A stretch of 64,000 nt of DNA from Anaeromyxobacter oryzae. Its GTDB lineage: Bacteria > Myxococcota > Myxococcia > Myxococcales > Anaeromyxobacteraceae. The position numbers and the translations under genes are program-made. The stretch lies in the NCBI RefSeq assembly GCF_023169945.1, contig NZ_AP025591.1:682001-746000 (forward strand), read 5' to 3'. The notes under the pieces are model-generated. The model had not been told where the DNA came from, did not search any database, and was given only the letters and a program-made list of their open reading frames with translations. Positions 17,916 through 32,263 of this stretch are shown piece by piece. The first letter of the stretch is position 1. Each line of letters starts with the position of its first letter.

Positions 17916-18272
17916 CCCTGGCCCTCTCCCCCGGTGGGGGAGAGGGGAGGATCTCCGAGCGTCCGCGGTCGAGCTCGCGCTCGCGATTCGTCGGGTTCCC
18001 GGCCGAGCTCGCGGTCGCCGGAAAGTGAGGACCTCCCTGACCCTCTCGCCCGGTGGGGGAGAGGAAAGGATCTCCGAGCGTCCGCGGTCGAGCTCACGCT
18101 CGCGATTCGTCGGGTTCCCGGTCGAGCTCGCGGTCGCCGGAAAGTGAGGACCTCCCTGGCCCTCTCGCCCGGTGGGGGAGAGGGGAGGATCTCCGAGCGT
18201 CCGCGGTCGAGCTCGCGCTCGCGATTCGTCGGGTTCCCGGCCGAGCTCGCGGTCGCCGGAAAGTGAGGTCCT
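17916..18272. repeat. three tandem 119-bp repeats with terminator-like hairpins
   Basis: Three near-identical 119-bp units are aligned on GGTGGGGGAG at 17933, 18052 and 18171, an exact period. Each opens with a stem like CCCTCTCCCCC-GGT-GGGGGAGAGGG (unit 1: 17922-17946, perfect 11 bp). Units 2 and 3 differ by a few bases. Each unit also carries GGTCGAGCTCGCGCTCGCGA or a variant. They fill the space between the convergent asparaginase and GIN-domain genes. Minus-strand open frames across them are not genes. Confidence 0.85.
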
Positions 18273-18313
18273 CCCTCTCCCCCCGTGCAGCGAAGCGGAG
18301 CGGGGGGAGAGGG
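18273..18313. terminator. strong stem-loop, end of the repeat array
   Basis: CCCTCTCCCCCC and GGGGGGAGAGGG pair over 12 bp with a 17-nt loop. It ends the 119-bp repeat array, just before the stop of the convergent GIN-domain gene, and probably acts as a bidirectional terminator. Confidence 0.5.
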
Positions 18314-27245: not shown

Positions 27246-27365
27246 GGGCGATCCCGCCCCGTGACCGTGGGCGTGCCCGATCCGGCGCACGGCAACGGGA
27301 GCGGAACGTCGCCCTGCGACACCCCACCCGTTTCGCTCACCAACGGCCTGCGGCACAGTCCCGGC

Positions 27366-27863
27366 ATGCGCGTCATCTGCTCGTACTGCCGCACCGTGAT
27401 CCGCGACGCTCCGGGCGCCGCTGCGACGGACGTGAGCCACGGGATGTGTCGCGCGTGCGACGCATACTTCGAGCGGCTCTGGGGCGGCATGCGGCTCGGC
27501 GAGTACCTGGATCTCCTGCCGAAGCCGGTGCTGGTCGTCGACGCCGACGGCCGCGTGGTCGCCGGCAACGCCCGGCTGGCCCAGGCGCTGGGACGGTCCG
27601 GGCACGAGCTCCGCGGCCTCCTCGGCGGCGAGGCGATGGCCTGCGTTCACTCGCGGCTGCCGGAGGGCTGCGGGAAGACCGTCCACTGCCGCGAGTGCAC
27701 CATCCGGCGCGCGGTGACGAAGGTGTCCGAGACGCAGCGGCCCATCGCGAACGCGCCGGCGTGGCTGAAGACGGACGCCGGGCGCGTCGACCTCTCCATC
27801 TCCGCGCGGCCGCTGGAAGACTTCGTCGAGGTGACGATCGAGGAGATGCGCCCGGCGGCGTAG
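27366..27863 (+). CDS. PAS-domain protein with Cys-rich zinc-binding segments
   Basis: 165 aa. The N-terminus has CSYCRTVIRD and GMCRACDAYF, a likely zinc ribbon (two CxxC pairs). A PAS domain follows at about residues 45-150 (LPKPVLVVDADGRVVAGNAR), with an inserted Cys/His cluster (GCGKTVHCRECTIRRAV) as seen in small PAS sensors of deltaproteobacteria. No kinase or output domain is attached, so it probably signals through a partner. The ATG at 27366 is chosen because it opens on the zinc ribbon. Confidence 0.75.
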   Translation: MRVICSYCRTVIRDAPGAAATDVSHGMCRACDAYFERLWGGMRLGEYLDLLPKPVLVVDADGRVVAGNARLAQALGRSGHELRGLLGGEAMACVHSRLPEGCGKTVHCRECTIRRAVTKVSETQRPIANAPAWLKTDAGRVDLSISARPLEDFVEVTIEEMRPAA

Positions 27864-27879
27864 ACGGCCCAAGAACCGC

Positions 27880-28044
27880 CGATTCATCACAAGCCGATCG
27901 AGAACCGGCGCCTTGCGCCCGGCCGGTCTTGATCGGTGAAAGTGAAGGAGGGCTGAGAAGGGGGCCGGCCGAGGCGAGTCCGCGGTGGGGAAGCGTCGTC
28001 CGCGTGGATCGGCTACCAAGAAGCCTGCGCCGCGATGCCGGCGA
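27880..28044. repeat. left long inverted repeat of the HNH element
   Basis: It starts with CGATTCATCAC (27880-27890), includes GAGAAGGGGG and CCGGCCGAGGCG (27955-27976), and ends in a block around GGATCGGCTACCAAGAAGCC (28006-28025). The reverse complements of these pieces occur in the same order at 29495-29664. Identity is high in 27996-28044 and moderate outside. Confidence 0.65.
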
Positions 28045-28300
28045 GCTCCCGGCGCGAGACGCGGATGCGGGCGCGTTCGGGGGAACCCAACGGATCGCGT
28101 CGGGCGGTTGACACGTCTCCGGCGCTTTCGCGGATCGCGCGTCGCGCCCGCGCGAGGACGCCTCTCCCGCAGCGCTCCGCGCGCGCGGAGCGGCGCGAGC
28201 GGCGTCCGAACCCCGGGGCGACGCAGCGCGCTGATTCTCGCGCCAGCGCTCGAATCCGTGCGTTTGCGGAGGGTGAGAATTCGCGTGAGACGATGCCCGC
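28045..28300. other. intergenic within the HNH element
   Basis: 256 bp between the left inverted repeat and the HNH start. Short open frames are present on both strands but none looks like protein. A TTGACA near 28107 has no clear -10. Confidence 0.4.
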
Positions 28301-29443
28301 ATGAACGCCCGCGACTCCTCGATCCGCCTCTCCGAGCTCCTCCGCCGCGAGCACCACGCGATGGCGGCCTTTCTCGTCGCCCTGGCCGACTTCGACGCGA
28401 AGCGGCTGTGGCTCGAGCTCGGCTACCCCAGCCTCTTCACCTACCTGAACCGGGAGCTCGGGCTGTCGAAGAGCGCGGCCTTCTACCGGAAGACCGCCGC
28501 CGAGCTCATCCAGCGCTTCCCGGAGCTGGTCGAGCCGCTCGAGGACGGCAAGCTGTGCCTCTCCACCGTCGGTGAGCTCGCCCAGGTGCTCACGCCGGAG
28601 AACCGGGACGGGGTGATCCCCCGGTTCCTCCACCTCTCGAAGCAGGAGGCGCGGGCGGTCGTCGCTGAGCTGAAGCCGGTGGAGCGGCCTCCGCGCCGGG
28701 AGGTCGTGACGACCGTTCGCGTCGCGGCGCCGCCGTCGGCTCGCGACCCCGAACCCGCCGCAGCGCTCGAGCTCGGCGCGCCGGCGACCGCCTGTGTCAT
28801 TGCGCCCGGTTCGCCGGCAGAACTCGTCGATGCCAAAGTGGCCACACGGACCGTGAACGTCCCGATTTCCCGGACGACGCCGCCGACCTTCGAGCCGCTC
28901 ACCGCCGAACTCCGCCGGATGCACCTCACCGTCACGAAGCGGTTCGAGGCGAAGGTCGCCGCGGCGAAGGAGGCCCTCTCGCACTCGCACCCGGGGGCGA
29001 GCACCGAGGTGATCCTCGAGGTCGCGCTCGACCTCCTCCTCGACCGGGCCAAGAGGCGGAGGGGCCTGGTCGAGAAGCCGCGGCGCGAGAAGCGGCCGTC
29101 GAGACCGGACCACATCCCGGCGGAGGTGAAGCGGGCGGTGTGGGTGCGGGACGGCGACTGCTGTCGGTGGGCTCTCGAGAACGGCGGCGTCTGCGGCTCG
29201 CGCCACCGTCTCCAGTACGATCACATCCAGCCGAAGGCGCTCGGCGGGAAGTCGACGATCGAGAACGTTCGCCTCCTCTGCGCTCGGCACAACTTGCTCG
29301 CCGCACGGAAAATCTTCGGCGATGCATGGATGGACAGGTACGCGCCGGCCCGCAAGGCCACCGCGGCGACGGGGCGCCGCGACGCCGGCTCGGCGGGTGC
29401 GCGCTCCGAAGTTCCCGCCGCGGCCCTGACCGGGCCGACGTGA
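28301..29443 (+). CDS. HNH endonuclease (13E12/DUF222-like) of a mobile element
   Basis: 380 aa. The N-terminal ~130 residues are helical and specific to this family (ELLRREHHAMAAFLVALADF, YPSLFTYLNRELGLSKSAAF). A variable middle follows. The C-terminal HNH domain has VWVRDGDCCRW, LQYDHIQPKALGGKSTIEN and VRLLCARHNLLAA, supplying the His-Asn-His and zinc residues. It cleaves DNA by prediction. The gene is bounded by long inverted repeats and is probably multicopy in the genome. Confidence 0.88.
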   Translation: MNARDSSIRLSELLRREHHAMAAFLVALADFDAKRLWLELGYPSLFTYLNRELGLSKSAAFYRKTAAELIQRFPELVEPLEDGKLCLSTVGELAQVLTPENRDGVIPRFLHLSKQEARAVVAELKPVERPPRREVVTTVRVAAPPSARDPEPAAALELGAPATACVIAPGSPAELVDAKVATRTVNVPISRTTPPTFEPLTAELRRMHLTVTKRFEAKVAAAKEALSHSHPGASTEVILEVALDLLLDRAKRRRGLVEKPRREKRPSRPDHIPAEVKRAVWVRDGDCCRWALENGGVCGSRHRLQYDHIQPKALGGKSTIENVRLLCARHNLLAARKIFGDAWMDRYAPARKATAATGRRDAGSAGARSEVPAAALTGPT

Positions 29444-29732
29444 CCGTCGGGCGCGACGGAGCGCCTCCCGAAGCCTCCGGCTGGCCGGACCCCATCGCCG
29501 CCGTCGCGACGCAGGCTTCTTGGTGGCCGATCCCCGCGGCGACGTCTCGCCCCTGCGGCCACGCCCCGGCCGTCCCCCTTCTTCTAGAGCCCCTTCCCCG
29601 CTCGCCAACACAGACGAGGCGTCCCTGCGGCGACGGTCGCGGTGGTCCGAGACGTGATGAATCGTCAGGGACCGGGGTCACGGGCACGGAGAAGCCGGGC
29701 ACGTTCACGGGCACGAAACGGCCCGCGCGTGT
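29444..29732. other. right inverted repeat and short GC-rich repeats
   Basis: No gene. 29495-29664 holds the right arm of the HNH element. 29672-29722 has imperfect repeats of TCACGGGCACG/GTTCACGGGCACG, which in reverse would read Val-Asn-Val-Pro; this looks like a decayed microsatellite, not a gene. Confidence 0.5.
29495..29664. repeat. right long inverted repeat of the HNH element
   Basis: Contains GGCTTCTTGGTGGCCGATCC (29514-29533), reverse complement of the left arm with one mismatch in the core. GCGGCCAC and CCCCCTTCTTC follow, and it ends GTGATGAATCG (29654-29664). Confidence 0.65.
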
Positions 29733-30935
29733 TCAGCTCGCCCTGCGCAGCACCAGGCACTTCAGGTATCGCCCCTCGCGGAACTGGAGCGAGACCGGGT
29801 GATCCGGCGGCTGGCGCGTCTCGCGCACGAGCGCGAGATCGACGCGCGCCTTGTACGCCGCCTCCTTCACCGCGTCCGTGAACTGCTCCGCGGTGACGCG
29901 CGCGGAACAGCTCGCGGTGACGAGGAGCCCGCCGGGCGCCACCACCGCGAGCGCGGCGCGGTTCAGGGACGCGTAGCCGGCGATCGCGGCGTCGACGGCC
30001 TTCTGGGACTTCGCGAACGCCGGCGGATCGCAGACCACGAGGTCGAACCGCCGTCCCTCCTTCTTGTACCGGGCGAGCAGGTCGAAGCAGTCCTCGGTGG
30101 CGAACGCGTGATCGGCGGGATCGAGCTGGTTCGCGCGGAAGTTCTCGCGGGCGAGCGCGATCGCGTCCCGGTCGACGTCGACCGACACCACGTGCCGCGC
30201 GCCGCCGAGCGCCGCCGCCACGGAGAAGCCGCCCGTGTAGCTGAACAGGTTCAGCGCCTCGGCGCGGCCGGCGGCGAGCTCCCGGACCATCCGCCGGTTC
30301 TCGCGCTGGTCGAGGAAGTGGCCGGTCTTCTGGCCGCGCCGGACGTCCACGAGGATGGTCATCCCGTGCTCGTCCACCGCGATCCGCTCCGGCGGCTCGG
30401 CGCCCCAGAGCACGCGCCCCGCGGCGGCGCCGCCCTCGTCGTCGTCGTCCCGCGGGATCTCGTCGCGGCCGTAGACGCCCTCGAGCCCGTCCACCTCCGC
30501 GCGGAGCGCGTCGACGATCGCCGCGCGGTGGGGCGTGAGCCCGGCGGAGTAGAGCTTCAGCACCGCGAACCGGTCGTACCGGTCGGCGACGACGCCGGGG
30601 AGCCCGTCGGACTCACCGTGGACGATCCGCCAGCCGTTCGTGCCGTGGAGCAGCTCGCGCCGGAGCGCGACGGCGCGCGCGACGCGGCGCCGCCAGAAGG
30701 CCTCGTCGATCCGCTCGGCGGGCTCGCGGGTCAGGATCCGGACCGAGATCGCCGAGTGCGGGTCGTAGTAGCCGCGCGCGACGAACCGCCCGTCCTCGGT
30801 GACGTCGACGATCGCGCCGGGCGCGAGCCGGTTCGGCGCGCGCTCCACCGCCTTCCGGAACACCCACGGGTGCCCCGCCCTGAGGTGCCGGGCCAGGTCC
30901 TTCTTGAGCGGCAGCTCGGCCTCGGCCGTCGTCAT
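29733..30935 (-). CDS. rlmI: RlmI-type 23S rRNA (cytosine-C5) methyltransferase
   Basis: 400 aa. The N-terminal PUA domain (KDLARHLRAGHPWVFRKAVE, GAIVDVTEDGRFVARGYYDP) is followed by a linker, then a Rossmann methyltransferase: LNLFSYTGGFSVAAALGGA (motif I), VVSVDVDRDAI, VVCDPPAFAKSQ (catalytic motif IV) and VTASCSARVT with the second catalytic Cys. It has an acidic insert DEIPRDDDDEGGAAAG. Its ATG overlaps the stop of the upstream radical SAM gene by 4 nt, so they are coupled. Confidence 0.93.
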   Translation of the reverse strand: MTTAEAELPLKKDLARHLRAGHPWVFRKAVERAPNRLAPGAIVDVTEDGRFVARGYYDPHSAISVRILTREPAERIDEAFWRRRVARAVALRRELLHGTNGWRIVHGESDGLPGVVADRYDRFAVLKLYSAGLTPHRAAIVDALRAEVDGLEGVYGRDEIPRDDDDEGGAAAGRVLWGAEPPERIAVDEHGMTILVDVRRGQKTGHFLDQRENRRMVRELAAGRAEALNLFSYTGGFSVAAALGGARHVVSVDVDRDAIALARENFRANQLDPADHAFATEDCFDLLARYKKEGRRFDLVVCDPPAFAKSQKAVDAAIAGYASLNRAALAVVAPGGLLVTASCSARVTAEQFTDAVKEAAYKARVDLALVRETRQPPDHPVSLQFREGRYLKCLVLRRAS

Positions 30936-32263
30936 CCTCTCGCCTCCCGGCCGCGGGCACGGCGGCGCGCCGGCCGCTCCTCCTTCGCCCGCGAGAAGTT
31001 CCCCACCACCAGCCCCGGCCGCGCCCGCCGGAGCGCCCGCACCAGCGCGGGGATCCCGATGGGCGCGCCGCCCGCGCCGCGGGTCCGCGCGATCTCCATG
31101 TACACGTCGGGATCGATCGCCAGCGGGCGGGTCTGGACCTGATCCACCTGCGTCTCGGCGACCAGCGCGCAGAGCCGCTCCGCCTCGCCCTCCCGGTCCG
31201 TGACCCCCGGGAACGTGAGCAGGTTCACCGCCACGTACACGCCCTTCCGCTTCGCGGTCCGCATCGACCGGACCACGTCCGCGAGCGCGTAGCCGCTCGG
31301 GCGATAGTAGGCGGCGTAGAGATCCGGGGACGCGGTGTTCGTCGAGATCCGCACGGAGTCGAGCCCGGCGTCGGCGAGCCGGGCGAGCGCATCGGGCAAC
31401 GAGCCGTTCGTGTTCGCGTGGATCGAGCCGCGCGACGTCCGCCGGCGCACCAGCCGGATCGCCTTCTCGAGCTCCTTCCAGCGCGTGAGCGGCTCGCCCT
31501 CGCACCCCTGGCCGAAGCTCACCATCACGTGCCCGGTCGCCGTCTCGAGGTGCCGGACGGCGAGGTCCGCCATCTCCTCCGCGGTCGGCGGGCGGGTGAT
31601 GCGCTCGTGCGACGAGGGCGGCATCCCCTCGTCCTGCTCGGAGAGGCACCCGATGCACGCGGCGTTGCACGAGGCGGAGGACGGGATCGCCCCCTCGTCG
31701 CGGCCGTAGAACGTGTTCTGCGCGGTGAAGCAGCGCCACTCGAGGGCGCAGCGCGCGAGCTGGCGGTAGATGGGGTTCCCGGTCGCGACGAGCCGCTCGA
31801 CCTTGCCCGGCAGGTCCGGCGTCGAGTGCCGCCCCGGGTCCCAGTGGCTCCGGCGATCGGTGCGCAGCGCCCAGACGACGGGGCCGTCCTCGCCGAACGC
31901 CGCGGCGGTGTACGCCCACTGCGGGAGCACCGGCGTCTCCGCGACGGTCGCGAGCGGCGGCCGCGCCGCGCCCGGCAGCAGCGACCGGGTGAAGCCCGGT
32001 GGCAGCGTCGCGCCGACCGCGTGCGGGACGATGCGGCGCCGGCCCACCTTCACCTCCTGCATCACGGTGAGCGCACCCGACTCCGGGTCGACCCCCACCG
32101 GCCGGCGCCCCGGGAGCAGGCACAGCGTGCCGCCCTCCGGGAGCGCGATGGGGGCCTCGCGCGGCGCGACGAGCGCGTCGCCGGTGCGAGCGGCCGCGAG
32201 CAGGTCCGGGTGGTCGTAGACCCGACCCCGGTCGTCGGCGAAGAGCAGTCTCGGCATTCCCAT
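30932..32263 (-). CDS. radical SAM protein, unknown substrate
   Basis: 443 aa. The 4Fe-4S motif is SCNAACIGCLSE (CxxxCxxC, about residues 199-206). SFGQGCEGEPLTRWKELEKA and SIHANTNGSLPDALARLADA are the SAM-binding Gly-rich and strand motifs. The N-terminal ~190 residues are a family-specific domain that reads like a beta-rich cap (RLLFADDRGRVYDHPDLLAA). It ends in an Arg-rich tail. It is co-transcribed with rlmI (ATGA overlap). The substrate cannot be guessed. The start could also be the ATG two codons later. Confidence 0.88.
   Translation of the reverse strand: MGMPRLLFADDRGRVYDHPDLLAAARTGDALVAPREAPIALPEGGTLCLLPGRRPVGVDPESGALTVMQEVKVGRRRIVPHAVGATLPPGFTRSLLPGAARPPLATVAETPVLPQWAYTAAAFGEDGPVVWALRTDRRSHWDPGRHSTPDLPGKVERLVATGNPIYRQLARCALEWRCFTAQNTFYGRDEGAIPSSASCNAACIGCLSEQDEGMPPSSHERITRPPTAEEMADLAVRHLETATGHVMVSFGQGCEGEPLTRWKELEKAIRLVRRRTSRGSIHANTNGSLPDALARLADAGLDSVRISTNTASPDLYAAYYRPSGYALADVVRSMRTAKRKGVYVAVNLLTFPGVTDREGEAERLCALVAETQVDQVQTRPLAIDPDVYMEIARTRGAGGAPIGIPALVRALRRARPGLVVGNFSRAKEERPARRRARGREARG

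Follow-up and report, generated by a model that had tools for sequence, protein, structure and literature searches.

A family of short Anaeromyxobacter elements with conserved inverted ends, duplicated palindromic targets and a single HNH endonuclease gene

The DNA analysed here (the window, G000:C1:682001-746000) is a 64-kb stretch of a 6.72 Mb genome of the genus Anaeromyxobacter. Within it, an HNH endonuclease gene is enclosed by long inverted ends, and the unit lies between two flanking genes that do not belong to it; the coordinates of these features are listed in Table 1. An initial sequence-only reading had described imperfect inverted repeats of about 165 bp around this gene, and this is borne out by arms of approximately 164 and 169 bp. 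Two blocks of the arms pair with one another, one of 45 nt (28000-28044 with 29495-29539, 89% complementary) and one of 43 nt (27956-27998 with 29540-29582, 79% complementary), and both were joined by BLAST at E 3e-19. The outermost inverted 10-mer, GATTCATCAC, recurs on the minus strand at 29654-29663, and the pattern GATTCRTCAC occurs only twice in the 64 kb, both times at the element ends, against 0.16 occurrences expected from shuffling. The limits first proposed, 27880-29664, were correct as to the presence of inverted ends but not as to the exact bounds: the true right end is at 29668 (GTCAG), and the left end is without its outer 5 bp, having ccgcc at 27876-27880 where other copies have CTCAT. 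A structured RNA in the arms was considered and rejected, as the 64-kb window gave no Rfam match at the gathering threshold.

Table 1. Features of the window copy and its surroundings (window coordinates)
Feature	Position	Strand	Remarks
Left neighbour gene, PAS domain (outside the element)	27261..27863	+	Stops 17 bp short of the element
Element, window copy	27881-29668		Long inverted ends flanking a single intact HNH gene
Left inverted arm	27881..28044	+	Tip GATTCATCAC at 27881-27890; inner conserved motif GGATCGGCTACCAAGAAGCC at 28006-28025
HNH endonuclease gene, 380 aa	28301..29443	+	Sole ORF between the arms
Right inverted arm	29495..29668	-	Inner motif followed by the tip GTGATGAATCGTCAG, the last base of which is 29668
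GGACCGGGG, probable right copy of the target duplication, left partner lost	29669..29677	+	Identical to the L006 duplication
Right neighbour region, SAM-dependent methyltransferase-like ORF (outside the element)	29733..30960	-	Convergent; named from sequence alone; start approximate

As had also been claimed, the arms enclose one gene and no transposase: the 380-residue product matches Pfam HNH (PF01844) above the cut-off (28.4 bits against 21.4, E 1.9e-6), and in Pfam the ORF matches only HNH models and no RuvC family. Residues D307, H308, H330 and N331, together with C288, C298 and C327, are invariant in 25 of 25 alignment rows. The protein comprises an N-terminal helical domain (residues ~16-127), a disordered linker and the C-terminal HNH domain (~260-345). 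In an AlphaFold model (pLDDT 81) the predicted N-terminal domain aligns with the DNA-binding domains of ParB/Noc (best Z 7.8, 101 residues aligned), and the HNH domain with those of McrA, IscB and Gme; the ParB/Noc and McrA matches are below Z 8, at which level they may reflect a common arrangement, and a Foldseek search with the same predicted model returned no hit with an E-value of 0.001 or less. These structural alignments suggest that the N-terminal domain may have a ParB-like, DNA-binding fold.

A protein search of the host genome returned 30 match rows, corresponding to about two dozen copies in two subfamilies. Ten copies, that of the window included, are full length (92-100% amino-acid identity), two more have 77% identity, and about eight make up the second subfamily at ~53-55%; the remaining rows are partial or rearranged. 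When the copies were aligned as DNA to the window unit, the alignment started at 27881 in most of the first subfamily and ended near 29606-29670 in most, and four internally deleted copies (L013, L015, L024 and L027) retain their ends. The copies with alignable ends that the sequence-only reading had suggested looking for are thus present; other HNH copies do carry the flanks, which are moreover multi-copy, each arm query giving 41 matches in its own genome with both ends of a copy counted. The protein was detected in 26 of 41 genomes (the host and 40 relatives), with a maximum of 38 matches per genome. A tree built from 66 chosen rows, drawn from eight genomes, groups the copies by genome: the genome label changes 11 times, compared with a mean of 41.8 after shuffling. 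We conclude that they have spread in genome-specific bursts. The HNH gene is under purifying selection, with a median dN/dS of 0.34 in the first subfamily (66 pairs) and 0.26 in the second (21 pairs). Several draft contigs stop inside or beside elements (L359-L362, L328, L331 and L341), which indicates that this family breaks assemblies and that copy numbers in drafts are probably underestimates.

Both subfamilies have in common the tip CTSAYGATTCATCAC, read inward, which is found with small variations at both ends of the copies. A search of the host genome with TSABGATTCRTCAC, allowing one mismatch, gave 43 matches, 36 of them at HNH copies and seven at isolated single sites, and the reversed pattern gave none. 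Among 38 tip-containing stretches fetched from genomes, 29 contain an HNH gene, four are contig ends and five hold host genes only. A second pair of conserved inverted motifs sits ~125-150 bp inside the ends. A GGATCGGCYNNCAAGAAGCC-like motif occupies the inner end of each arm in the host, in one G007 element and in A. oryzisoli (G004). Elements of G003 and G006 have a GGGCATCGACGGGG-like motif there, as do other G007 elements at one end. The tips are thus common to all, and the inner motif follows the HNH clade. Identity between the window protein and the HNH proteins of A. soli and A. terrae is only 32-36%, yet the elements of these two species have the same tips together with duplications.

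More divergent arrangements were seen among the relatives. Copies of the A. dehalogenans type (G002 and G005; L163-L184) have no recognisable tips, their right ends are lost and similarity disappears directly after the HNH gene; they are possibly immobile remnants. One HNH subfamily of G007 (L347-L355) has the tips CTCTCGATTCATCAC / CTTGTCATTCRTCAC and lies in GTCGGG-type hexamer tracts rather than in palindromes. In an Armatimonadetes metagenome-assembled genome (G041; L240, L262, L385-L398), relatives of the HNH gene lie between palindromes of 18-20 bp, ACTCGGTCCGGACCGAGT or ACTGGGTCCGGACCCAGT, the two halves of which vary together, and solitary palindromes are also present; the HNH family was thus retained there although its ends changed. 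Matches in plasmid and phage sequences (two plasmid records and one phage record) were to the HNH domain only, covering 18% of the query.

Directly outside the 5-bp tips, host copies are flanked by a direct repeat, for example CCCGGTGGG at L008, GCCGCAGGC at L005, GGCTGCGCC at L015 and CCCTGCTTC at L007, so that the target duplications sought after the sequence-only reading were found, with a length of 9 bp. At the 14 host loci with both ends, 85 of 126 bases match between the left and right 9-mers (permuted mean 54.5), a value reached in none of 20,000 permutations; inverted similarity of the flanks was weaker, 334 of 20,000 permutations being as high. Across six genomes, duplications of 8-11 bp with at most one mismatch are present at 27 of 33 tip-paired loci, a liberal count that takes the best of several lengths and shifts and in which four of the 27 lie in the hexamer tracts of G007, where a duplication is trivial. 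Loci without both tips within two mismatches were left out of these counts, as were same-site duplicates from two collections. At eight loci with both tips in A. soli, A. terrae and A. oryzisoli, 18 of 5,000 permutations were as high, a weaker result because most of these loci have one common target sequence.

The targets are palindromic, and the midpoint of the duplication coincides with their dyad. Around this midpoint 86 of 135 positions pair, compared with a mean of 42.6 and a maximum of 64 on shuffling, and pairing drops to 57-60 when the centre is displaced by 1 bp, giving a sharp peak at the exact centre. Joining the flanks gives GGGGGC-GCA-GCCCCC in A. soli and A. terrae and CGTGCCT-GTA-AGGCACG at L342, and a CCCTCTCCCCCGGTGGGGGAGAGGG-like palindrome is found at L003, L008 and L027. 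We considered whether the palindromic flanks form part of the element and rejected this, as the flanks are locus-specific and the common part stops at CTSA. Of 13 host sites inspected, 12 have an ORF to either side, and convergent genes flank ten of these (raw count).

The window copy, one of six paired loci without a duplication, has none because it is without its left tip and the left partner. On its right it is flanked by GGACCGGGG, which is identical to the duplication of L006; the right flank of L006 is the same dispersed repeat. This intergenic repeat (29669-29715; GGGACC..TCACGG..CACGGAGAAGCCGG) has many copies in A. oryzisoli (G004; L316-L325). Empty sites, the third kind of evidence looked for, were found in relatives: at the locus corresponding to the window copy the ends of the flanking genes are 154 (G001), 92 (G002) and 41 bp (G005) apart, as against ~1880 bp in the window, and in G004, which is without the element at this place, 247 bp separate the right neighbour from the next gene to the left. 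In G003, G006, G007 and G008 the left side was non-syntenic or the contig ended.

That these elements insert by a transposition-like reaction is therefore well supported, and the fixed ends, the near-constant length of the duplication and the symmetric target indicate a staggered-cut insertion by an enzyme that synapses the ends. In the sequence-only reading the unit was called HNH-based and mobile; its mobility stands, given the copies, ends, duplications and empty sites, whereas the part of the HNH protein as the moving enzyme is only likely. As the sole encoded protein it is the candidate, and its role is favoured by the association of HNH gene and tips across deep divergence, by the clade-specific inner motifs, by purifying selection and by the near absence of the DDE families tested. 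We regard the chance that the HNH protein performs insertion as about even, and our best explanation, held with equally balanced confidence, is a family of ~1.8-kb DNA transposons moved by the product of their single gene, an HNH nuclease with a ParB-like domain for DNA binding. The N-terminal domain would bind the inner inverted motifs, the protein would synapse the element ends and make cuts in tips and target that are staggered by 9 nt and symmetric about the palindrome, and the gaps would be filled by host repair. A counterpoint is that copies in which the HNH gene is broken or shortened (L013, L015, L024 and L027) also have duplications, so that either activity in cis is not required or the gene decayed later. 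A further point against it is that HNH enzymes are not known to carry out strand transfer.

The closest known system is the IS4 family (IS10/IS50, Tn5), which resembles the element in its 9-bp target duplication and CT... ends. IS10 and IS50 also use symmetric targets, as does the element. PMC2266710 gives the IS50 end signature CW------Y---CA-A--W- and 8-9 bp direct repeats for IS10/IS50; CTGACGATTCATCACATGT-type tips fit this signature by eye, and the duplications described above agree with these repeats. IS4-family members differ in encoding a DDE transposase, and the element differs from them in its conserved inner motifs. Mobile insertion cassettes, of which MIC231 is an example, have IS-like ends around a non-transposase gene.

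The main rival explanation, which we consider unlikely although it has to be taken seriously, is that the element is such a cassette: non-autonomous, bounded by IS50/IS10-like ends and mobilised in trans by a DDE transposase, with the HNH gene as cargo. Besides the fit to the IS50 signature and repeat length, 8-13 of 19 bases of the tips match the Tn5 outer end, the best value among all 19-mers of the window being 12, and the transposase could have been lost or could lie outside the three DDE families sought in the host genome. Among these, PF01609 (DDE_Tnp_1, IS4/Tn5-type) had no match in the host genome, and the model was working, as it detected the Tn5 transposase at 63.5 bits; PF00872 gave one 52-residue fragment and PF00665 matched in two places. 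No Tn5-like match was found in 1.5 Mb of fetched loci, and neither the host nor the fetched tip loci of relatives gave an autonomous or, in the host, a trans-acting element that has these tips. The failure to find a matching autonomous element in these sequences is a difference from known cassettes, as is the retention of the same HNH family across clades. The presence of HNH in most fetched tip stretches, the selection on the gene and the entirely different ends of the Armatimonadetes relatives likewise speak against a cargo role.

A less probable alternative, to which we give little credence, is that the HNH protein acts as a helper or homing nuclease that cuts only palindromic empty sites, with repair copying the element in and excision or joining left to another enzyme. 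IscB/TnpB elements are small and encode only a nuclease, which by cutting the empty site lets repair restore the element. The present element is similarly small, nuclease-only and HNH-bearing, and the resemblance of its modelled HNH domain to IscB and McrA is compatible with homing. The palindromic targets are dispersed and intact copies remain: CGGGGGCTGCGCCCCC has nine exact copies in the host, eight away from element ends and one beside L004, and an intact CCCTCTCCCCCGGTGGGGGAGAGGGG is present in the window at 17922. However, homing copies flanking homology without duplicating the target, whereas here the flanks differ per locus and each has its own duplication. The element further differs from IscB/TnpB in its inverted ends and 9-bp duplication and in having neither a RuvC match nor, in the window, an Rfam match; the IscB model NF040563 (NCBIfam) scored 19.5 bits against a cut-off of 175. 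Repeats that arose by chance, or that recombination spread in the absence of insertion, would suit the window copy with its missing duplication, and are contradicted so plainly by the duplications, the empty sites and the association of tips with HNH that we regard this explanation as having almost no likelihood.

Returning to the HNH-driven transposon, a bolder version, which we put forward tentatively and judge a little short of an even chance, is that the protein is itself a transposase using metal-dependent HNH chemistry in place of DDE, HUH or recombinase chemistry; the ParB-like domain would read the clade-specific inner motifs, insertion would occur at the dyad with a 9-nt stagger, and multi-copy HNH/DUF222 genes of other phyla could be diverged members. 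The REP13E12 / DUF222-HNH genes of actinobacteria, named as repeats in PMC10589994, resemble the present family at the gene level, as multi-copy HNH genes; matches to DUF222 (PF02720) were weak (E 6e-4 and 1.6e-3) and below the cut-off, the best being 19.6 bits against 24.4 (L017, second subfamily), and the window protein gave no match. The description of the unit as undescribed holds within the literature searched, which had most subscription journals and ISfinder outside its scope and yielded casposons and mentions of repeats but no such element.

If the HNH protein moves the element, this would be a new chemistry of DNA transposition, performed by a compact enzyme of 380 residues with a predictable target, namely the centres of palindromes that lie between genes and outside coding sequence. 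Should the HNH gene instead be cargo, then Tn5-like ends have carried a nuclease through a bacterial family in which no transposase is visible, and this too would call for an explanation. In both cases there is a function to test for the multi-copy HNH genes that appear in databases merely as endonucleases. Palindromes of the target type also occur elsewhere in the window, where a 119-bp intergenic unit is present three times in tandem (17916-18276), each with the palindrome CCCTCTC-CCCGGTGGGGGAGAGG.
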